From the NCBI GenBank assembly GCA_903872565.1, contig CAIQLG010000034.1, positions 1-38,754 of the forward strand: a stretch of DNA of 38,754 nucleotides, read 5' to 3'. Shown here piece after piece: positions 823 through 16,248 of the stretch. Within the stretch, counting starts at the first letter, position 1; the number at the start of each line of letters is the position of its first letter. Position numbers and translations under genes: made by a program. The DNA comes from an uncultured Lentisphaerota bacterium. Its GTDB lineage: Bacteria; Verrucomicrobiota; Lentisphaeria; Victivallales; GWF2-50-93. The notes beneath the pieces are model-generated. The model saw nothing but the letters and a program-made list of their open reading frames with translations, was not told the DNA's origin and made no database searches.

Positions 823-1650
823 CTACTTCAGCGCCACCGAGTGGTAGTAGCCCGCCGCCACCTGGACCACATCGCTAATACCACTGGCCTGGACTGGCGT
901 ATTTCGCTGGGTGGTACTCCCATCCCCCAATTGGCCATTGCTGTTATTCCCCCACACCCAGATCGTCCCATCCGACTTCAGCGCCAGCGAGTGACCGTTT
1001 CCTGCGGAGATCTGGACCACGCCACTAAAACCACTGGCCTGACCGACCTGGACCGGTGTCGAGCTGCCCGTCGTGGTTCCATTCCCCAATTGGCCGTTGC
1101 CATTGTCTCCCCACGCCCAGACCGTCCCATCCGACTTCAGCGCCAGCGAGTGGGAGTTGTCCGTGGAGACCTGGATTGCGCCGGTCAAACCAGTGGCCTG
1201 ACTGACTTGGACCGGCGATGTCCGCCGCGTGGTGCTCCCATCCCCCAATTGGCCATTGCTGTTATTCCCCCACGCCCAGACCGTCCCATCCGACTTCAGC
1301 GCCAGCGAGCAATTGTAGCCCGCGGCGACCGCCTTAATGCCGGCCGGCGTGAGCGCCTGGATCGGTGTCAGAGAGTACATCGTGGTTCCAACCCCCAATT
1401 CGCCATCGTTGTTCTCCCCCCACGCCCAGACCGTCCCATCGGACCTCACCGCCAGCGAGTGATTGTATCCAGCGACGACCTGGATTGCGCCAGTCAAACC
1501 ACTGGCCTGGCTGACCTGAATCAGGGTCGATTTGTTGGTCCAGGTTCCATCTCCCAATTTCCCATAAGAATTACTCCCAGACGCCCAGACCGTGCCATTG
1601 TTCCTCAGCGCCAGGTTGTGGTCGTACCCGGCGCCCAGTGCCATGCGCCC
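598..1650 (-). repeat. Seven tandem RCC1-type repeats (one full propeller's worth)
   Basis: Units with HSLALKSDGTVWAWGxNxxGQLGDG signature; unit 6 carries the TAG, unit 7 lies beyond it. Confidence 0.85.
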
Positions 1651-4600
1651 ATCGTTGTCAATGAACGTCAGAGTGTGGACCGTGGTGGAGCCGGGCATGG
1701 CATTGACGGGTGTGCCCATCGTGACTACGACCGTCTTGCCTATCTGGTTCCAGACAGCATCGTCGATGATCGTGACGGTGGCCGCGGCACTGGTCGAGCC
1801 CGCCGGTATCGTCAGCGGGCTAGAGCTGATCGCGTAGTCGATCCCGAGCGTGGCGGTTCCTCCTGTGACGCTGAACGGCACGGTGACATCCTGGGCAGTG
1901 GTCGCCGAGAGCAGTGCCGTGACCGTGGCCGTCCCCGCGCCCTCCCATTTCGACTGGCTGGCATTGGAGAACGAGACGGTCACCGTGGCGGCATCGTTGT
2001 CCTTGATCGTCAAGGTGTGTACCGTCGTGGCTCCCAGATTCGCATTGGTTGGCGTTCCCATGGTCACGATGACGGTCTCGTCCGGCTCGTCGAGCGCGTC
2101 GTCTACGATAGAGAGCGTGATGTTGGCCGTCGTGGAGCCGGCCAGTATCGTAAGCGGGTTGCTGGTCGTGATCGAGTAGTCCACGCCGCCGCCCGTGGCG
2201 GTTCCCCCTGTGACGCTGAACGGCACAATGATGTCCTTGCCGCTGACCATCGAGAGCTCGGCGGTGATCGTGGCCGTCCCGGCACCCTCGGACACGTCTT
2301 GGTCGCCTACTGTGAACTTGACTGACGGCGGCGTGGTGTCGTCCAGAATCGTGACGGTGGCGGCTGCGGGGTTGCCCAGCATGGCTCCGATGGCGTTGGA
2401 GAGCGTGATCGTGAACGTCTCGTCCGGCTCGTCGAGCATGTCGTTGATGATCGGGACAGTGAACGACTTGCTGACCGATTCGCCGCTGTCCCAGTTGAGC
2501 GTTCCGCTTGTGGAGGTGTAGTCGCTTCCGGCGATGGCCGCCCCGTTGGCGGTGGCGTAGTTGACGCTGGCGACCCCGGTGTTCCCGCCAGTCCGCGCCA
2601 CCGTGATCGTGACGATTCCGGCGTTCTCGTTGACCGAATATGTGTCGGACGAGAACGCCAAGGTTCCGGAGGCCGAGTCGTTGTCCTTGATCGTAAGGGT
2701 GTGAACCGACGGCGACACCTTGATGGCGTTGGCTGGGGTGCCCATGGAAATGATGACCGTCTCGGAGGATTCGACGCCGATGTCGTCGACGATGGTGACC
2801 GTGATAGTCCCGGTGGTGCTTCCGGCGGGGATGGTCAACGAGGAGGAGGGATTGATCGAGTAGTCCACACCGCCACCCGTGGCGGTTCCCGAGACCGTGA
2901 GCGGCACGGTAACCGTCTGGCCGCTGGCGGCCGAGAGCTGGGCCGTGATCGTGGCCGTCCCGGCGCTCTCCCACACCGACTGGCTGTCGGCGGTGAACGA
3001 GATGGTTGGCGTGGCATCGTCGTCGGTGATGGTGAGCGTGTGGATCCATGTCGAGCCCTTGGTGGCGTTGACGGGTGTCCCCATCGTGACTACGACGGTT
3101 TCGTCGGGCTCGTCGAAGGTGTCGTTGTTGATCGTGACGGTGATATTAGCCGTCGAGGAGCCCGCTGGTATCGCCAGCGACAGCGAGCTTGGTGCGACGG
3201 TGTAGTCTGTCCCGGACGTGGCGGATCCGCCGACCGTGAATGGCACGGTGACATCCTGGCCGCTGGGCGCCGAGAGCTGGGCCGTGATCGTGGCGGAGCC
3301 GCCGCTCTCGGCCAGTGGCTGCGACGCGGATGTGAACGACACGGTCGGCGTGGCATCGTTGTCGGTGATGGTGAGCGTGTGGATCCATGTCGAGCCCTTG
3401 GTGGCGTTGACGGGCGTCCCCATCGTGACGACGACGGTCTCGTCTGGCTCATCGAGGGCGTCGTTGTTGATCGTGACGGTGATGGTGGCCGTGGTCGAGC
3501 CGGCCGGTATCGTCAGCGGACTGATCTTGTCCATGACATAGTCGGTTCCGTTCGTGGCGGTTCCCGAGACCGTGAACGGCACCGTGACGACTTTTGCGCT
3601 GACGGCCGAGAGCTGCGCCGTGATCGTGGCCGTCCCGACGCTCTCCAGCTTCGTCTGCGAACTGGCAAACTGCACGACCGGATAGTCGTTGTCTGGAATC
3701 GTGAGAGTGTGGACGTAGTTCGTCCCGAGCGTGGCGTTGTCGCTCGGGGTTCCCAGCGTTACGACGACCTTCTCGTCTGACTCGTCGAGGACGTCGTTGG
3801 TGATAGTGACGGTGATATTGGCTGTCGTGGAGCCCGCCGGTATCGTCAGCGGGCTGGTCTTGTCCACGACGTAGTCGGTTCCGTAGGTGGCGGTACCAGA
3901 GACCGTGAACGGCACGATGACGGCCTGGCCGCAGGGCGCCGAGAGCTGGACTGTGATCGTGGCTGTGGCGTTTACATATGCGTTCATTGATTCTGACCAC
4001 ACTTGCGCTTCAGAAATTGACTGCTCGCTGGCAGTGAACTGCGCCGTGGGCCGGTAGTACGCGCCTACGGCGGCCAAGGTCTGGATGTCCACGGCGCCCA
4101 GCGCCCCGTCGTAGATTCTGAACTCGTCAAACAAGCCTTTGAAGCCGTAGTTCAAAGTGGTCCGGTTTCCTATTGCAAGGTCTTGATATGAGGTCATGAA
4201 CACCGATCCTGCGGGCGGGGTCAGCGCATCGTACAGCTTTCCGTTGACATACCAGTCCACCTCGTACGGGGTCGCCGTCACGGCGTAGTGGTACCAGCCG
4301 CCAGCGACGGTAGAGTGGGTTGTTGAAGTCACCGTGCCGCCTGCCGTGGTATACCATTGGAGCTTGCATGCGCCACCTGACGAATAAATCATCGAGTGCT
4401 TGGTCCCTGACGGATCCTTGAGCGTCAAGGCGGTCTCGTTGGCGGTCCACGACGCCAGATCCGAGTTGATCCAGGAGCTCACGGTGAAGGCCGAATTGGC
4501 CGCCATCGCCGGTATCGGCAGCGTCACCCCGCTGGTGGCGGCGGCGAATTTGATCCCCCCGTTCAACATGCCACTCGTCGTCCAGGTGGGTCCGTTGACC

Positions 4601-7600
4601 AGGATACCGTTGTTGCCGTGGCCGGAGGTGTCGGCCGCCAGCGTGCCAGTGGTTTCGTCGAAAGGCAGATGGGCCAGCAGCCCGGCCACCCGGATCGCCA
4701 CCTCTCCGGATGTCCCCACCGCGCCCAGGTTGTCGGTCGCCTTTGCCGTGAGGATGTATGAGCCAGCAGGAGCTCCGCTCCATGTGAAGGTGTAGGGGGA
4801 GGCCGTCGCCTCGCCCAGCTTCGTCGCCCCCTGGTAGAACTCGACCTTGACTATCGAGCCGCCCAGGCTGGCGGCATCGGCGCTTATCGCGATGTCGTCG
4901 GACGCCATGAATGTCGCCCCCGAAGCGGGGGTTGTGATCTCGACCGAGACGCCCACTGTCAATGTTGCCGCTTCGCTGGTGACACTTCCGCTGGCGTTGG
5001 TCACCACCACGTCGTAGTAACCGACATCGCCGCCCGAAACTGATGAGATCGTGTAAGAGTATCCGTTCGCCCCGGCAATTGGCGCGCCATTATGCCGCCA
5101 CTGGTAGCTCAACGGCGCGGCTCCCGCCGCCTCCACGCTGAAGGCCGCCGGGTCCCCGAGGGCCGCCACCGTCACGTCCGCCGGCTGTGTCACGATCACC
5201 GGGCTGGTCGTCCCAAAGCACGCAACATCCCCGTTGCGATTCACCACAATGATCTTCCCGCTCCGGTCCACCGCCACTCCATGCATATAGGGCTCGCTGC
5301 CGGAGGAAACCGCGAAAAGCTGCCTCCCGGTCTCCCGGTCCAGGACGCTGACTCCCCCTGCGGCGTCGGTCAGTTTGACGAGGCAGTTGGCCGTCAGCGC
5401 CATCCCCCTCGAGGGTGACGAGCCGGGGATCCACAGCGCGTCAGGCGCGGGCAGGCCGGAGGACGACTGATTGTTCGTGACGGCGGAGTCTAACCATTGG
5501 CTCAGGGTGGTCTGGGAATACTTTTTACCGTCGATGTACGCGTCCGAGCCGTCCCATGCGGGAAAGGACAGTGTACAACTAGTATACGGCGCAACCGGCG
5601 TACCCGAGACGGTTTTAATGATAGGGCAGGTGGAGAACATAACAAGCATTTCCTTGTGCAGATCCTCCCCCCAGGCAAGCACGTAGTCGCCCATGGCACC
5701 GATTTGTCGGCCGCCTGCATTAGGTAGCGGGTTGCTGGTGGAGATGGCACCCGTCTCCAGATCGAAGATCCCCATCCTCCGGTAAGGAGCCTCCCGCACA
5801 AAGAGCTTTTGGCCGACCACGGTCATATACCCGCCGGGAACCAGGCCGATCCGGGTCCTTCCAGGCGTGTTGGCCAGGCAGACCCCGGCGCTGGTTTTCT
5901 GCCAGATTATGGCACCGGTCGCCGCGTCCACTGCGTACGCCTGCACGCCCCATTCGTCCAGCATCCCGGACACGAAATACGCCACGCCGTCGTTGACCAG
6001 CACGCCAGTCAGGATTGGCCAACTGCTGATCAGATGCCCGTAGTAGTTGAACCGCCGCTCCGCCGGAGCCGCTCGGAAGCGCCACACCAGCTCGCCGGTG
6101 TGCGCCTCAAAGCAGTACGCGTACCCGTCGCCGGAGCCCACGTAGACGCAGCCGTTCCAGACGGTAGGCGTGGCAAAGACCCAGCCGCCGGTGGCGTAGC
6201 TCCATTTCAGGCTGCCGTCGGCGTTGTCAAGGCATTTAACAACTCCATCGCTGCCCGCCAGATACGTGTAGCCCCCCGCCGTCACCGGCGGTGTCACGTC
6301 GTGATAGATGCTGTTGTAGTCGGCGGCGGCCGGCGGCGTGTACAGCTTATTTGGGTTGTCATACTTCCAAAGCTGGACGCATTGACTGGTGGCCACCCGC
6401 GCATGGGAGGAGGCGCTGCGGCTGTTGTTCGCGCGGTGCGTGGGCCAGTCCAGTTCGTCAGGAACCACCCGCTTCGTCCAGGAGGAGTAGACCGGGCCTT
6501 TTTCCAGCCGCTCGGATTCCACCGCCGTCTGATCGGGATTGAAGGAGCCCTGCGGCACCTCAGCTTTCGTCCCAAAATGCATTTCAAAGCATGGGCAATT
6601 CCTTGGTTCAAACATCATCATTCCATCCGTGGCAAAGGGAACTGAGTCACAATCTACAGAGTTTGGGGAGGATTGCCCCGCGGCGGCAATTTTCTCAAAC
6701 GAGTATTGATATCCCCCGGCGCGGCCATTCCACGTGCCCTGCGGTGTTACGGAGTCTCTGGTGCAATTGCCTTGATTATATGAAACACTCGACCCGTTGG
6801 TGGTGGCGACGCCAGTCAAAATGTCATAGGTGGTGGAATAGTTCTCCCAGCACACAAATTCCTTGCCGCCGTTGCGATAAGGACTTTGGACAATGTCAGG
6901 CCCCACCCACGAAGAAGAGCCGCCCAACGATTTTGTCCATAGGACCGATCCGTCAGCGACGGATAGATACGCCAGGGACGCTAGGGGATATGGAGGATCG
7001 TATGAATTACTGGCTTTCATGGAAACCAGAACGCCATAGGTGGAAGCGTTGATGCCAATGATCATTGCTGGCGCGGTGACGATGGTGACCGGACCCCAGA
7101 TTTTCGATCCGTCCGCAGCGTTGTAACAATAGAGCGAGGTCTGGCTGGCTACATACAGCTTGCCGCCGCCCACCACTAAACTTCCAGCTTCTGCTGTTCC
7201 CAATAACGCGTTGTTGTCGATAAAATCCGACTTGCTATACACGATGGCTCTGTTCGCCAGATCATAGGCGAACAACGTGTTCTTGCCGACATTATCACCA
7301 AGCGCGGCGTAGAGGATGTCATTGTCAACTTTAGCATAAGCATAACCATTTCCATCGGGGAAGGGAATGGCGGTGCTCTCGCCTGTCTCACCGTCAATGA
7401 TCTGATCATCATAGATGACGCCTTTTGAGAAGGCTGCAAGATAAGGGGCGCCCGTCCGACTATAAACTTGAAAAATCCATGTGGATCTAGAAGATTTGTT
7501 AGCCGCCAGTTCCCACAAAAGCTGGCCATTATACGCCGAGGATGCGTACACATGATCTGTTTCTATACCGCCGACGATATCCGGAAGCCACCTGTACACC

Positions 7601-8385
7601 CGTCCGCCGCCGGACGTTATACAATGTGTACCACCGAGAAAGGCATGAATTGTAATACCCTTGGGCTTGGCGAGCCATTGCGGCAAGGTGGGCCAGGTTG
7701 CCCTCTTGTCGTTGTGGAAACGACTGCCTCCGCTGTTGATCATGTTCCCCTCGTAGGTGTCCGGCAGACGGCTGATCTTGGTAATCACCGCCCAGGTGCC
7801 GTTGGTGTCGCTGACCACGGCGGCCGCAGATAGATCATGCGTGCCAGCGATCCAAGTTGTCAGAGCGGCGGACGACAGGCTGCCGCCCTCTGCGGTGGCC
7901 CGCCCCACCCAGGCCTTGGCCCCGGGGGCCAGTATCCGCTCGATCTCGTTGTAGGACACGCTGGCGAGGTCGGAGTCCGTCAGCCCCGTGACCGCCACCA
8001 GATCCATGAAATTATCAGCGTAGGGCATCGAGTAGGCGGTGGTGGACAGCGTGCCGGAGCGGACATAGATGTTGCGACCGAGCAGACCGCCAGCCTTGCC
8101 CTGCGCCGTCTTCAACAGAATTGGATCGCTCTCGAAGGCATCCACCAGCATCTTGGGATCGTCTCCCTTGTTCCAAAAGCCGACCGCCAGCTCGCCGGAT
8201 CCGCATTTCGGCACGGCGACTGCGGCGCAATGCCGCCCCGACTGGGTGAGCAGGGAGAGCGCGAGGGCATCGGCGGCGGTCTGGTCCATCGCCTGGGTGC
8301 CGACGGCGCACATGAGGATGGCGGCGGCGCAGGCAAAGCCACGAGCAAGGGGCGTATGGGAACGTACAAACTGGTCGATTGACAT
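823..8385 (-). CDS. Giant secreted multidomain protein: signal peptide, MTase-like N-terminal region, PQQ-like beta-propeller repeats, Ig-like domains, LamG, 7 Calx-beta, RCC1 repeats; ends at an apparently premature TAG
   Basis: ORF 823..8427. The internal ATG at 8385 is preferred: GAGGG lies a few nt upstream and the product starts MSIDQFVRSHTPLARGFACAAAILMCAVGTQA (signal peptide). Motifs: 'DGSLKWSYATGGWVFATPTVWNGCVYVGSGDGYAYCFEAHTGELVW' (PQQ), 'HLPFDETTGTLAADTSGHGNNG' (LamG), 'GTDY...LTIPAGSTTANITVTI..D...DEPDETVVVTMGTP' (Calx-beta), 'HSLALKSDGTVWAWGNNSNGQLG' (RCC1). Confidence 0.9.
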   Translation of the reverse strand: MSIDQFVRSHTPLARGFACAAAILMCAVGTQAMDQTAADALALSLLTQSGRHCAAVAVPKCGSGELAVGFWNKGDDPKMLVDAFESDPILLKTAQGKAGGLLGRNIYVRSGTLSTTAYSMPYADNFMDLVAVTGLTDSDLASVSYNEIERILAPGAKAWVGRATAEGGSLSSAALTTWIAGTHDLSAAAVVSDTNGTWAVITKISRLPDTYEGNMINSGGSRFHNDKRATWPTLPQWLAKPKGITIHAFLGGTHCITSGGGRVYRWLPDIVGGIETDHVYASSAYNGQLLWELAANKSSRSTWIFQVYSRTGAPYLAAFSKGVIYDDQIIDGETGESTAIPFPDGNGYAYAKVDNDILYAALGDNVGKNTLFAYDLANRAIVYSKSDFIDNNALLGTAEAGSLVVGGGKLYVASQTSLYCYNAADGSKIWGPVTIVTAPAMIIGINASTYGVLVSMKASNSYDPPYPLASLAYLSVADGSVLWTKSLGGSSSWVGPDIVQSPYRNGGKEFVCWENYSTTYDILTGVATTNGSSVSYNQGNCTRDSVTPQGTWNGRAGGYQYSFEKIAAAGQSSPNSVDCDSVPFATDGMMMFEPRNCPCFEMHFGTKAEVPQGSFNPDQTAVESERLEKGPVYSSWTKRVVPDELDWPTHRANNSRSASSHARVATSQCVQLWKYDNPNKLYTPPAAADYNSIYHDVTPPVTAGGYTYLAGSDGVVKCLDNADGSLKWSYATGGWVFATPTVWNGCVYVGSGDGYAYCFEAHTGELVWRFRAAPAERRFNYYGHLISSWPILTGVLVNDGVAYFVSGMLDEWGVQAYAVDAATGAIIWQKTSAGVCLANTPGRTRIGLVPGGYMTVVGQKLFVREAPYRRMGIFDLETGAISTSNPLPNAGGRQIGAMGDYVLAWGEDLHKEMLVMFSTCPIIKTVSGTPVAPYTSCTLSFPAWDGSDAYIDGKKYSQTTLSQWLDSAVTNNQSSSGLPAPDALWIPGSSPSRGMALTANCLVKLTDAAGGVSVLDRETGRQLFAVSSGSEPYMHGVAVDRSGKIIVVNRNGDVACFGTTSPVIVTQPADVTVAALGDPAAFSVEAAGAAPLSYQWRHNGAPIAGANGYSYTISSVSGGDVGYYDVVVTNASGSVTSEAATLTVGVSVEITTPASGATFMASDDIAISADAASLGGSIVKVEFYQGATKLGEATASPYTFTWSGAPAGSYILTAKATDNLGAVGTSGEVAIRVAGLLAHLPFDETTGTLAADTSGHGNNGILVNGPTWTTSGMLNGGIKFAAATSGVTLPIPAMAANSAFTVSSWINSDLASWTANETALTLKDPSGTKHSMIYSSGGACKLQWYTTAGGTVTSTTHSTVAGGWYHYAVTATPYEVDWYVNGKLYDALTPPAGSVFMTSYQDLAIGNRTTLNYGFKGLFDEFRIYDGALGAVDIQTLAAVGAYYRPTAQFTASEQSISEAQVWSESMNAYVNATATITVQLSAPCGQAVIVPFTVSGTATYGTDYVVDKTSPLTIPAGSTTANITVTITNDVLDESDEKVVVTLGTPSDNATLGTNYVHTLTIPDNDYPVVQFASSQTKLESVGTATITAQLSAVSAKVVTVPFTVSGTATNGTDYVMDKISPLTIPAGSTTATITVTINNDALDEPDETVVVTMGTPVNATKGSTWIHTLTITDNDATPTVSFTSASQPLAESGGSATITAQLSAPSGQDVTVPFTVGGSATSGTDYTVAPSSLSLAIPAGSSTANITVTINNDTFDEPDETVVVTMGTPVNATKGSTWIHTLTITDDDATPTISFTADSQSVWESAGTATITAQLSAASGQTVTVPLTVSGTATGGGVDYSINPSSSLTIPAGSTTGTITVTIVDDIGVESSETVIISMGTPANAIKVSPSVHTLTIKDNDSASGTLAFSSDTYSVNENAGIVTITVARTGGNTGVASVNYATANGAAIAGSDYTSTSGTLNWDSGESVSKSFTVPIINDMLDEPDETFTITLSNAIGAMLGNPAAATVTILDDTTPPSVKFTVGDQDVSEGAGTATITAELSMVSGKDIIVPFSVTGGTATGGGVDYSITTSNPLTILAGSTTANITLSIVDDALDEPDETVIVTMGTPTNANLGATTVHTLTIKDNDAATVTVSFSNASQSKWEGAGTATVTALLSATTAQDVTVPFSVTGGTATLGIDYAISSSPLTIPAGSTSAAATVTIIDDAVWNQIGKTVVVTMGTPVNAMPGSTTVHTLTFIDNDGRMALGAGYDHNLALRNNGTVWASGSNSYGKLGDGTWTNKSTLIQVSQASGLTGAIQVVAGYNHSLAVRSDGTVWAWGENNDGELGVGTTMYSLTPIQALTPAGIKAVAAGYNCSLALKSDGTVWAWGNNSNGQLGDGSTTRRTSPVQVSQATGLTGAIQVSTDNSHSLALKSDGTVWAWGDNGNGQLGNGTTTGSSTPVQVGQASGFSGVVQISAGNGHSLALKSDGTIWVWGNNSNGQLGDGSTTQRNTPVQASGISDVVQVAAGYYHSVALK
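1655..4050 (-). repeat. Seven tandem Calx-beta domains, ~110 aa each
   Basis: Repeated (A/E)SxGTATITAQLS...VPFTVSGTAT.GTDY...IPAGSTTA.ITVTI.(N/D)D..DEPDETVVVTMGTP..A..GS..HTLTI.D(N/D)D. Confidence 0.85.
4075..4680 (-). other. LamG/concanavalin-like domain within the giant protein
   Basis: LLAHLPFDETTGTLAADTSGHGNNGILVNGPTWTTSGMLNGGIKF...WYVNGKLYD...LFDEFRIYDGALG. Confidence 0.8.
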
Positions 8386-8501
8386 AGAACCCTCACTTTG
8401 GTTATTGTTTTTTCCCAATAATCTCAAGGCACGGAATCCTTGAAAGCTCGCCTTAGGAACTGTGAACCTAATCCGCAGCAGCGGCTGGAATTACTGGTGA
8501 A

Positions 8502-10655
8502 TCACTCCTTCTCAGCGATCTTCTTCAACAATTCGGCTTTGACAGCGTCGGACAACGAGGACTGATTAACCCATTTTGCCCTGTCCGAACTGACAAAACT
8601 CAAAGAATCCGCCACAGCTTCAAATGCCTTATCCCGTCCCTCTCCTCCTGTCATCTGTCCAGCCCAATTGGCTGCCGCCATGGGATCTTTATGCGCCCAA
8701 ACACGGGCTATCTGGCACAACCTCATCTCCCGATCCCCCTCTGGCAGCCGTTCAGCCCAGTTGGCCGCCCCCACGGGATCTTTCCACGTCCAGCTATCGG
8801 ACACCCTGGACAACGTCGCATCCCGCTCCTCCTTCGGCAACTGCTCCGCCCAGTTGGCTGCGGCCTCGGGGTCTTTCCCCGCCCAAGCATAGGCCAGGTC
8901 ACCCAACGTCGCATTCCGCTCCTCCACTGGCAGCCGTTCAGCCCACTCGACCACCGCCACAGGGTCTTCATTCACCCATCTCGAAACCACACAGCCCAGC
9001 GCCCAATCCCGCATCTGCCTCTTCGGCAGTTGTGAGAACCAGTCGGCCGCCGCTGGGCAACCTTTATCGTCACACAAGCGGGGCCACACATCCTGCATTG
9101 CCAGCTCCTGCTTCTCCCCAGGCAGACGCTCCACCCAATTGATCGCCGCCGCCATATCATTCCGCGCCCAACCCGCCACTACCGCACCCACTGTCTGATT
9201 GCTATCTGATAACTGATCCTCCTGTTGCTCTGCCCACTCTGCTGCGGCCACCGGATCTTGCTGCGCCCAACTGGATACCGCACTCCTCAATGCTTTAGGA
9301 GGCGTCCAAGTCCCTGTTCCGTTTTCCATTGCTTTACTACTTCTTTGTTCATTGATCCGTTTATTGATTTGAGTTGCCCACTTAAGCGCCGCCTCAGGGT
9401 CTTTCCGCGCCCAAACATTTGCCACACCGTCCAATGGTCCTATAATTTGCCCCAAATACTCATTGGCATATTCACCATCGAATGGCAGATTCTCCGCCCA
9501 TTCGGCCGCCCACAAGGGATCTTTCTCCGCCCACGCTTCCGCCACGGCCCACAATGCCGTAGCCTGCGCCCTGGACTTCGGCATGTGCTCCGCCCACGAG
9601 ACCGCCACATCAGGAGCATAGTCAAACCATTCTCTCATCAGACTGCTCAGCGGTTCAAGATCGTTAGGATACCCTTGTAACGCTCTTTCGGCCTCGGACT
9701 GGAAATCTCTTGTCTTTGGCGAGTGCCTGACGGACGGCGGAGTGCTCTTTGAGTCCGGAGCCTGTGCCACCGTTCCGGCATCGGCATCTGACACGACAGC
9801 CTTGCCGCCTCCATCCGCGATTTTTTCCTTCGCCACCACACGGATAATTCCGCTTCCCAGCAACAGTAGCAGCAATGTCGCCAGCAATCCCAATCCGACT
9901 ATTTTCATCTTTGTCATAAACATCACCTTCATTGTTCCTTCCATTATCGACACTATGCTTCCCGCTCCGGAACCGGCTGTGGCACCTGCCGCGGCCAATT
10001 TCGGAACAGCCAACAAGGAAGGAATGAGAGTTTCTGGAATGGCGGCCTGTGATTCTGTAGCCAGCACTCCAATCAGCGCGGGAACGCCCAAGGTGCAGCC
10101 GCGCTTTACAAGCCGCTTGCGCAAGGTCAAAATACCATCAAATGCGCGTTTGCTCAATGTGCCAGGAGCACACTCCGCGATCTCCGCAGCATCCTTCTCG
10201 CTCAAGCCCTGCAGATGGCGAAGAATCACCGCCTCTCGCTGTCCTACAGACAATGCAGAAAGTTCCTCATCCAGGATTCCAAGAATGGTTTCACTATCGT
10301 GGGAACCGACATAAGAATGTGATTCGGCATTCATAATTTCTGCGGCTACGCTCTCTCTCTTGTCGCGGCGCACTCTCGACCGAGCCATAAAAAGAGCTGT
10401 CTGCCTTGCCACAGCATAAAGCCAGCAAGCCAATGTTTTTTTCTCTTTCAAATGACAACTTTTTTTAACCAATGTCATAAAAACCGCCTGACTCGCATCT
10501 TTCGCATCGTGTTGGTTCACCAGCTTACGGAAGCAGACGCTATAAACCATTGCACCGTAGCGAGAGACAATCTCCGCGAAGGCACCTTCATCGCCAGTCT
10601 CCGCATAGGCTTTGATGAGTTCGGCATCTTTTTTCGTTTGCACCTGCATTATCAC
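8502..10655 (-). CDS. ECF-type RNA polymerase sigma factor fused to a TM helix and a C-terminal ~33-aa WA-repeat domain
   Basis: N-term 'AETGDEGAFAEIVSRYGAMVYSVCFRKLVNQHDAKDASQAVFMTLVKKS...LACWLYAVARQTA' (sigma2) and 'LSVGQREAVILRHLQGLSEKDAAEIAECAPGTLSKRAFDGILTLRKRL' (sigma4); TM 'MKIVGLGLLATLLLLLLGSGIIRVV'; then WA repeats. Start GTG 10655 or ATG 10649. Confidence 0.9.
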   Translation of the reverse strand: MIMQVQTKKDAELIKAYAETGDEGAFAEIVSRYGAMVYSVCFRKLVNQHDAKDASQAVFMTLVKKSCHLKEKKTLACWLYAVARQTALFMARSRVRRDKRESVAAEIMNAESHSYVGSHDSETILGILDEELSALSVGQREAVILRHLQGLSEKDAAEIAECAPGTLSKRAFDGILTLRKRLVKRGCTLGVPALIGVLATESQAAIPETLIPSLLAVPKLAAAGATAGSGAGSIVSIMEGTMKVMFMTKMKIVGLGLLATLLLLLLGSGIIRVVAKEKIADGGGKAVVSDADAGTVAQAPDSKSTPPSVRHSPKTRDFQSEAERALQGYPNDLEPLSSLMREWFDYAPDVAVSWAEHMPKSRAQATALWAVAEAWAEKDPLWAAEWAENLPFDGEYANEYLGQIIGPLDGVANVWARKDPEAALKWATQINKRINEQRSSKAMENGTGTWTPPKALRSAVSSWAQQDPVAAAEWAEQQEDQLSDSNQTVGAVVAGWARNDMAAAINWVERLPGEKQELAMQDVWPRLCDDKGCPAAADWFSQLPKRQMRDWALGCVVSRWVNEDPVAVVEWAERLPVEERNATLGDLAYAWAGKDPEAAANWAEQLPKEERDATLSRVSDSWTWKDPVGAANWAERLPEGDREMRLCQIARVWAHKDPMAAANWAGQMTGGEGRDKAFEAVADSLSFVSSDRAKWVNQSSLSDAVKAELLKKIAEKE
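8570..9640 (-). repeat. About ten degenerate ~33-aa repeats (WAxKDPxAAANWAExLPxxxRDxxLxxVxxx) in the sigma factor C-terminus
   Basis: e.g. WAGKDPEAAANWAEQLPKEERDATLSRVSDS / WTWKDPVGAANWAERLPEGDREMRLCQIARV / WAHKDPMAAANWAGQM. Confidence 0.85.
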
Positions 10656-10881
10656 CAGTTTTTCACTCTTTCCTGCATAACGCTTGCCGTCAGGCCGATT
10701 TGATTACATACAAATTTAAAAAAAATATGAAAATTTATTTTCAATTCGAATTTCGATAGTGACATCTACGTTACCGCCGTAGAGGGTTATAGAGTAGGTT
10801 CCGGGTGCGCTGATGGTGGCCGCCGCGCAGCTTTGGCGACACGTATTATCCTCCGGTCGACTTTCATGGTGTCGGTTGCCG

Positions 10882-14466: not shown

Positions 14467-16248
14467 TTAAAACTTGAATGAGAGTGTGGAGGGGTGGGAC
14501 TCCTTCATTTTCATGAATACGAGTTCGTCGAGGAGTTGTCTTGCCGGTGTCCATTTGCCCATATAGCTGATGTATCCCTGTATGCTGTATATCTCATTTT
14601 CAGCCTGAGCTCTTGCTGACTTGCGAATTTCGCACATTTCAGTCTCGTGATTCAGGTTGAAGGCTTTTTCAGCCTTCTGGAGTTCGAATTTAAGCATTTC
14701 ATTCTGGGAAATCCATTGTCCTTCCACAGGCAAATATCCTGAATCCCTGTAGTATTTTTCCCCATTGAATCCTTTGTCGTTTCCATTTCTTCTGACATAT
14801 GCGGCTTTCTGTACTGCGACGAACTTGTCGAGCTTTTCAATTGTGACCGATGGGACTCTAATTACGAATGCATTGATTTTAAGGTTCGCACATATTTCCA
14901 TTGTCTTCGCCTTGGAGTCAAAGGGTTTTAGTACGTCAATTTTTTCCTTTATTATGTCCCGCTCTCGCTGGACTATCATTTTTTCTATTTCCTCCTGTGG
15001 CTTGTCGGGAGCCTGTATGTCGGATGGAATTCCGAGTCCACCTGCAAGAATCTGGCGTGTCCTATCCTTCATGTCAAAATACTTGTAGAATCCTCCCGCG
15101 ATGGAGAAGACGGATCCGAGCACGATAAAAGTCAGGACCGTAAGTGCGGCCTTCCTTAGTATTCCCGAGCATGCGCTTCTGAATTTTCTGCTGCTGGGTT
15201 GTGTTTTTTTTTCAATTCCAAGCGCTATTTTCATGGTTTTTCCTATCGCCTCGACTGTCGTCTTGAATCTCACCACTGGGGGAACATTGTAGAGGGAATC
15301 TCTTACCTTGTCCATTCCTCTTTCCAATGGGATTAAGCTGCGGGGGCGTCCATGGGGATCCCTCTGTATCATCTTGTCGAGCAGCTGGACTGTTTCCTCG
15401 CGACAGTGTTTTATATAAGGCCTGGAAGAAATTATTCTGGCGGCCCGAAGATGTTTTTTGACGAGTTCGTCGAGTTCCTTCTGCGTGTAGTATGTCCGGC
15501 CAGCGAGCATATAGAAGAAAAGCATGCCCATGCTGTATATTTCGCTGTATTCGTCTTCGGCCACGCCGACGATTCTTTCCGGTGGCATAAAGAATGGTGA
15601 ACCTTCAATCATGTCGGAATCGGAGTTTGCGGTTTTCATTTCTTCTGTTGGCATGGTGAGCCCGAAATCGAAAATCTTGATGTTTTTGTTACTATCCACA
15701 ATTATGTTCTGCGGCTTGAGATCGCGGTAGAGAAAGCCTTTTGAGAGCATATATTTTTCAGCATCGAGAATTTGTTCCATTATAGAGAAGGCTTCACGTT
15801 CTGTCATGTGGAACTGTTTTTCGACAAAATGGTCGAGCCTTGTTCCTTCGAGAATTTCCGTTGCGAGATAGTGTTCTCCGTGGGAAAACCCGCCTTCGAC
15901 AACCTTTACAATATTATTATGATGTCCCAGTTCTTTTGCGGCGTTGATCTCTCTCAGGAAGTCCTTTACAAAAGTCTGATCGTCTTTTTTGCTTCTTGGG
16001 AGGACTTTCACGGCATATTCAGCTTCATCCTTATCGGATACGGCACGGTAGACTTTTCCCATTCCGCCCTCGCCGAGAGTGTCATAGAGCCAGAAACTGG
16101 AGATTTTCGCGGGTATGAGAACATCCCTGAGGCAATATGAGCATTTGACGAAGTTGAGTTTCTGTTCGTTGAGGATTGGAATCTCCGCACCGCAGGCGCA
16201 TTTGACTCTTTTGTGTCTGAGCATTTCAATGTCTGGTCTTATATTCAT
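14467..16248 (-). CDS. Serine/threonine protein kinase with N-terminal zinc-ribbon-like motif and a C-terminal TM/extracytoplasmic region
   Basis: CACG...CSYC; 'LGEGGMGKVYRA', 'YAVKVL', 'YRDLKPQNIIVD', 'IFDFGLTMP', 'PPERI'; TM 'AALTVLTFIVLGSVFSIAGGF'. Confidence 0.92.
   Translation of the reverse strand: MNIRPDIEMLRHKRVKCACGAEIPILNEQKLNFVKCSYCLRDVLIPAKISSFWLYDTLGEGGMGKVYRAVSDKDEAEYAVKVLPRSKKDDQTFVKDFLREINAAKELGHHNNIVKVVEGGFSHGEHYLATEILEGTRLDHFVEKQFHMTEREAFSIMEQILDAEKYMLSKGFLYRDLKPQNIIVDSNKNIKIFDFGLTMPTEEMKTANSDSDMIEGSPFFMPPERIVGVAEDEYSEIYSMGMLFFYMLAGRTYYTQKELDELVKKHLRAARIISSRPYIKHCREETVQLLDKMIQRDPHGRPRSLIPLERGMDKVRDSLYNVPPVVRFKTTVEAIGKTMKIALGIEKKTQPSSRKFRSACSGILRKAALTVLTFIVLGSVFSIAGGFYKYFDMKDRTRQILAGGLGIPSDIQAPDKPQEEIEKMIVQRERDIIKEKIDVLKPFDSKAKTMEICANLKINAFVIRVPSVTIEKLDKFVAVQKAAYVRRNGNDKGFNGEKYYRDSGYLPVEGQWISQNEMLKFELQKAEKAFNLNHETEMCEIRKSARAQAENEIYSIQGYISYMGKWTPARQLLDELVFMKMKESHPSTLSFKF
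14622..14634. repeat. Iterated palindrome copy 1, TGCGAATTTCGCA, inside the kinase gene
   Basis: Exact match. Confidence 0.9.

Follow-up and report, generated by a model that had tools for sequence, protein, structure and literature searches.

The open reading frame at 8502..10655 on the (-) strand of the window, the 38,754-nucleotide stretch of Lentisphaerota DNA analysed here, encodes an ECF sigma factor followed by a linker, a transmembrane (TM) helix and a WA-repeat solenoid, at the coordinates and on the strand that an earlier sequence-only note had given. The annotated GTG start yields 717 aa and an ATG two codons further in (10649) yields 715 aa; the ATG is probably the true start, as the resulting MQVQTKKDAEL matches the N-termini of the paralogues. 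Sigma-70 region 2 covers residues 30-96 (10368..10568, (-) strand; Pfam Sigma70_r2, E 1.2e-8) and sigma-70 region 4 covers residues 127-172 (10140..10277, (-) strand; Pfam Sigma70_r4_2, E 1.7e-7), both over the Pfam gathering scores and separated by ~30 residues. The protein also reaches 61 bits against TIGR02937 (cut-off 42.9) and matches solved ECF sigmas, e.g. SigW 5wuq (E 3.6e-10). Having predicted sigma2 and sigma4 domains and no sigma3, it classes by sequence as an ECF (group 4) sigma factor. The earlier note had read sigma2, sigma4, a TM helix and a repeat array on one polypeptide, which Pfam, hydropathy and a WA profile confirm; the domain search that it proposed found undisrupted sigma domains and, by hydropathy, one TM segment.

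The C-terminal half of the protein contains nothing assigned by Pfam, in which no model fits the repeat and the best scores are at chance level. The predicted WA-repeat alpha-solenoid occupies residues ~334-697 (8565..9656, (-) strand) in 11 two-helix units, eight of which carry a clear WAxxDPxAAxxWAxxLP signature. In a whole-genome search, a 32-residue WA profile, whose training rows include some repeats from this very ORF, recovered eight units in the ORF (E 1.5e-14 to 1.5e-9) and 57 matches genome-wide, 49 of them (E<=0.01) at other loci. AlphaFold, given the tail and 16 related sequences, returned a regular alpha-solenoid of 11 helix pairs (mean pLDDT 89.4), bearing out the fold predicted in the earlier note, whose count of about ten repeats is fair given eight clear profile matches and 11 modelled helix pairs. 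A few WA relatives touch helical Pfam models, e.g. ELYS and Katanin_con80, and Foldseek returned importin, armadillo and PP2A-A type solenoids at low TM-scores. As these matches are of the generic helical-repeat kind, we dropped the attempt to name a solenoid family, and the model supports the tail at the level of general fold class, alpha-solenoid. The tail probably lies outside the cytoplasm, given that the sigma domains must be cytoplasmic and a single TM helix follows them, that WA repeats elsewhere in the genome and phylum follow an N-terminal membrane anchor, and that homologous sigma-TM proteins bear envelope-type tails (T2SS G pilin, GH123).

Between the sigma domains and the solenoid, hydropathy reveals one strong hydrophobic segment at residues 244-276, peaking at 252-271, in which the predicted TM helix is placed at residues ~253-273 (9837..9899, (-) strand; Kyte-Doolittle maximum 2.43); next in height come the linker (1.33) and the tail (0.82). 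The helix is preceded by a conserved post-sigma linker at residues 183-252 (9900..10109, (-) strand), recognised by its conservation, by a peak at synonymous sites and by homologues in PVC bacteria, and is followed by a low-complexity juxtamembrane spacer at residues ~274-314 (9714..9836, (-) strand) that is predicted to be disordered (pLDDT ~30, conservation 0.15). An alignment of 14 sequences (seven from paralogues and seven from PVC bacteria) gives mean pairwise identities of 0.49 for sigma2, 0.55 for sigma4 and 0.44 for the linker of 70 residues, whose final 14 positions reach 0.54; the TM helix stands at 0.24 and the spacer at 0.15. Thus the linker is about as conserved as the sigma domains, and the TM helix and spacer are far less so. 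S213 and M245 are invariant throughout the alignment, and the juxtamembrane block MEGTMKVMFMTKMK (MEGxMKxMFxxKxK, 0.54) is among the best-conserved parts beyond sigma. A mere tether would not need such conservation. The linker, which contains a single cysteine (C187), has no detectable match among solved structures and is modelled with low confidence (pLDDT 30-50), so a role as an anti-sigma in cis is a guess from its conservation.

The earlier note saw no anti-sigma factor nearby, and this holds for the nine window proteins and the ten paralogue neighbours scanned (a subset of those neighbours), none of which has an anti-sigma domain. The gene for a large secreted-type multidomain protein of 2534 aa (823..8427, (-) strand; PQQ propeller, Ig, LamG, Calx-beta, RCC1) begins 74 bp downstream of the sigma stop and is possibly co-transcribed with the sigma gene or a target of it. 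We dropped its product as a conserved partner after finding no equivalent beside the paralogues examined. On the same strand as the sigma ORF, 3.8 kb upstream, 14467-16248 encodes a Hanks-type kinase (Pkinase domain E 1.1e-51), which raises the alternative that this kinase or another activates the sigma factor by phosphorylation and that the solenoid serves mainly as a scaffold. Planctomycete ECF59, 61, 62 and 217 are indeed listed as phosphorylation-regulated (PMC8999054). However, three genes lie between the kinase and the sigma gene, and Hanks-type kinases are absent from the ten paralogue neighbours scanned, the sole kinase-like protein there being of ABC1/UbiB type at the paralogue C172. 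We therefore consider control by phosphorylation very unlikely.

The source genome, a draft of 6.56 Mb in 606 contigs with 5% estimated contamination, gives 27 sigma-region-2 matches in total. Seven apparently intact genes have the sigma-linker-TM order and form two subfamilies, A (C34, which is the window gene, C395 and C55a) and B (C172, C600, C4 and C64). WA-repeat tails are found in C34, C395, C172 and C600. The tail of C55a consists of YD/RHS-like repeats (RHS_repeat E 0.006, DUF2963 E 3.6e-8), that of C4 includes a weakly matched DUF1559/pilin-like piece (E 0.0038), and that of C64 combines a Pfam-unassigned domain with a few divergent WA units. At the C4 locus a separate anchored WA-repeat gene stands directly downstream of the sigma gene. 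The survey proposed in the earlier note thus does not uphold a singular architecture: the window protein belongs to a same-genome family with swappable tails.

How the tails came to differ may be read from synonymous sites, measured as the share of codons that are identical where both genes encode the same amino acid. From sigma to linker this share rises from 47% to 82% in C34/C55a (p 1.3e-4) and from 53% to 73% in C64/C4 (p 0.025), two pairs with unrelated tails, and from 54% to 91% in C172/C600 (p 2.4e-6); these p-values are uncorrected for the 21 pairs compared, and the two lowest survive such correction. The 12 between-subfamily pairs have no such rise, and codon bias was rejected as the cause on these grounds. 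In sliding windows, the linker peak of C34/C55a and C4/C64 is flanked by divergence on both sides; in C172/C600 the similarity extends past the linker into the tail. These patterns are best explained if gene conversion or recombination has acted at the linker and joined heads to new tails; constraint at the nucleotide level is a less likely alternative. The linker is a candidate cis-inhibitory or release segment and an apparent recombination joint.

A second shared feature lies ahead of these genes. Subfamilies A and B can be aligned over some 75 bp ahead of the start codon, and in the window the conserved upstream block spans 10654..10727 ((-) strand), overlapping the annotated GTG by two bases and containing a T-tract, AAANCGnnCTGNCGGCAA, a TATA-like element and GGAAAG. 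The window block is one of the nine copies from which the profile (R1) was built and matches it at 55.5 bits (E 3e-14). Beyond the training copies, the profile matches C323 (48 bits) and C266 (39 bits), both relics of the sigma family; weaker matches occur at C173 and C21, with no clear gene behind them, and a weak one (E 0.12) just upstream of the separate ECF gene C172:11650 (L042). At the latter locus (L042:11572-12974) the ECF sigma gene is followed by one for a TM protein, as in a classic sigma/anti-sigma pair. No RNA structure was predicted for the block. With the strong genome-wide matches confined to sigma-family copies or relics, the block is less likely to govern a wide regulon. The sequence makes it plausible that the block is a shared promoter or leader, possibly an autoregulatory one, and common descent accounts for part of the sharing. 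A tiny frame (VKNW or MKNW, then a stop) closes at the sigma start codon or a little ahead of it, at 10650-10665 ((-) strand) in the window and just upstream of 6436 in L039; it is possibly a leader peptide or a product of chance.

Searching genome contigs and viral contigs with the full-length protein gave no matches, and a linker profile was needed to detect relatives outside the genome. In a set of 198 genomes (86 genera) from the class, the source genome alone matched a linker + TM profile, and among 388 genomes of the phylum five were positive, the source genome included. In named records, the linker-TM module turns up in MAGs with the labels Planctomycetota, Planctomycetia, Kiritimatiellae, Verrucomicrobiia and Akkermansia. 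The architecture is therefore no isolated oddity but one form of a module that recurs across PVC bacteria. These sigma-linker-TM-X proteins (L105-L114, L125-L128) have the same order of sigma2, sigma4, linker, TM helix and extracytoplasmic-type tail, and their linkers end in (K/E)G(V/A/T)(L/M)KxMFxxKxK, as here. The window protein likewise has the (K/E)GxxKxMF linker motif followed by one TM helix and, on its presumed topology, a large extracytoplasmic-type tail. What differs is the tail itself, which in the PVC proteins is of HEAT repeats (L109), TPR (L105), GH123 (L107), T2SS G pilin (L106) or unassigned type, with WA repeats seen in none. In L107:5548-8973 the domain joined to sigma by the same linker and TM helix is a glycoside hydrolase 123 (E 2.3e-25), and L126 and L127, from related genomes, encode very long sigma-linker-TM proteins (ORFs of 2294 and 2319 aa) whose tails look alpha-2-macroglobulin-like by eye. 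Of the 388 phylum genomes, 11 gave WA-repeat matches, counting the source genome; the WA proteins read from the other genomes have no sigma domain, and most start with a membrane anchor. The stand-alone WA proteins of the phylum (L048, L055, L136, L138, L139, L142) share the ~31-32-residue repeat behind a membrane anchor and differ from the window protein in having no sigma domains. In this sampled survey the WA-sigma fusion was seen only in the source genome.

ECFs with C-terminal extensions are known, including TM fusions and planctomycete WD40 tails (PMC8999054, PMC8567305, PMC8103513). ECF57, for example, comprises planctomycete ECFs in which WD40-like C-terminal extensions are common but not universal (PMC8999054). 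Compared by described features rather than by group models, the window protein resembles ECF57 in having a C-terminal repeat tail on an ECF sigma and no separate anti-sigma in a PVC bacterium, and differs in that its tail is a predicted WA alpha-solenoid with no WD40 match. ECF57 proteins have two conserved cysteines that link sigma2 and sigma4; cysteines are present in each of these domains of the window protein, but in subfamily B (C172, C600) sigma2 has none. IutY (ECF243) of Pseudomonas putida is a fused sigma-TM protein activated by Prc and then RseP cleavage (PMC8999054). Like the window protein it has sigma, TM and periplasmic parts on one chain; what sets IutY apart is an anti-sigma module of FecR type linked to a TonB-dependent receptor, as the window protein has no FecR match. 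Members of ECF52 and ECF53 (e.g. SCO4117 of Streptomyces) also fuse sigma to a TM helix and an extracytoplasmic domain, and proteolytic activation is predicted for the sigma-TM fusions ECF48/52/53 (PMC8999054). In ECF52 and ECF53 a zinc-finger (ZAS) segment precedes the TM helix, whereas the window protein has no zinc-finger match and C187 as its one linker cysteine. The tethered-sigma design is thus of a known kind. Two features look new, the WA-solenoid tail and the indications of tail exchange: neither was found in the literature searched, the main ECF classification papers excluded.

With middling confidence, we propose that the window protein is a modular membrane-tethered sigma factor of PVC type, held inactive by its linker and tether and freed by regulated proteolysis when the solenoid senses a partner. 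We infer that it would then work as a one-component trans-envelope switch. The tether and linker would keep sigma off RNA polymerase, with the linker as a cis-acting anti-sigma; the solenoid would bind a periplasmic or envelope partner, possibly a stand-alone WA-repeat protein; engagement of this partner would lead to cleavage near the TM helix by a site-1 and then a site-2 protease; and the freed sigma would transcribe its targets and, via the shared upstream block, its own gene. Regulated proteolysis is favoured by analogy with IutY, cleaved by Prc and RseP. Site-2 protease homologues are present in the genome, which says little, since they were found in all 14 control genomes and are near universal. 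The intact sigma domains, single TM helix, confidently modelled solenoid and conserved linker, together with the lack of an anti-sigma domain among the proteins scanned, give the tethered-switch reading about an even chance. Alternatively, the uncleaved sigma may work in place, clustering of the solenoid or a conformational change relayed through the TM helix and linker exposing sigma2 and sigma4. The highly conserved juxtamembrane block would fit such mechanical coupling, and protein interaction has been put forward as the activating event in the extension-bearing ECF42 and the WD40-bearing ECF57 (PMC8999054). However, a poorly conserved TM helix and a disordered, variable spacer are ill suited to precise mechanical coupling, and no working tethered sigma like the window protein was found in the literature searched; we regard activation in place as possible, if doubtful. 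Proteolytic release thus remains our preferred reading. A more far-reaching picture, in which the linker/TM DNA is a recombination joint for new envelope sensors and the WA-sigma and free anchored WA proteins form one periplasmic solenoid network feeding mutually or self-activating sigma genes via the upstream block, seems to us rather unlikely.

Most extension-bearing ECF groups have no experimentally studied member (PMC8999054), and in PVC bacteria little work has been done on signalling through tethered sigmas whose outside domains can be swapped. Seven intact members in one genome, with signs of tail exchange at one conserved linker, make two questions testable, namely whether the linker acts as an anti-sigma in cis and whether swapping the tail changes the signal. 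If both are so, one-protein envelope reporters could be built from the module.

Clearly decayed paralogues exist, and not every copy is functional. At least seven family copies (C55b, C216, C526, C545, C266, C323, C509) are truncated or internally deleted, which could be taken to mean that the window gene is itself a decaying, non-functional or constitutive copy in a duplicating family, persisting without a dedicated signal. However, this copy is intact over 717 codons and retains the upstream block. Moreover, when its sigma region is compared with that of C395, third codon positions diverge most (identity 0.47, against 0.73 and 0.79 at first and second positions), which points to purifying selection on the protein; we consider decay of the window copy quite unlikely. 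In the degenerate copies at L040 (C55), L041 (C216), L046 (C526), L047 (C545), L053 (C266) and L087 (C323), we observed internal deletions or missing ends, and in some of them the middle is gone, with the upstream block and the final repeat still in place. These deletions could be real gene decay or errors of the draft assembly. Three decayed copies also have in common ~50 bp past the stop (gttcaccg.ttcccgttgaccgt.ccccgcaaa; L040 near 302, L046 near 9729, L053 near 2370), possibly a dispersed repeat.
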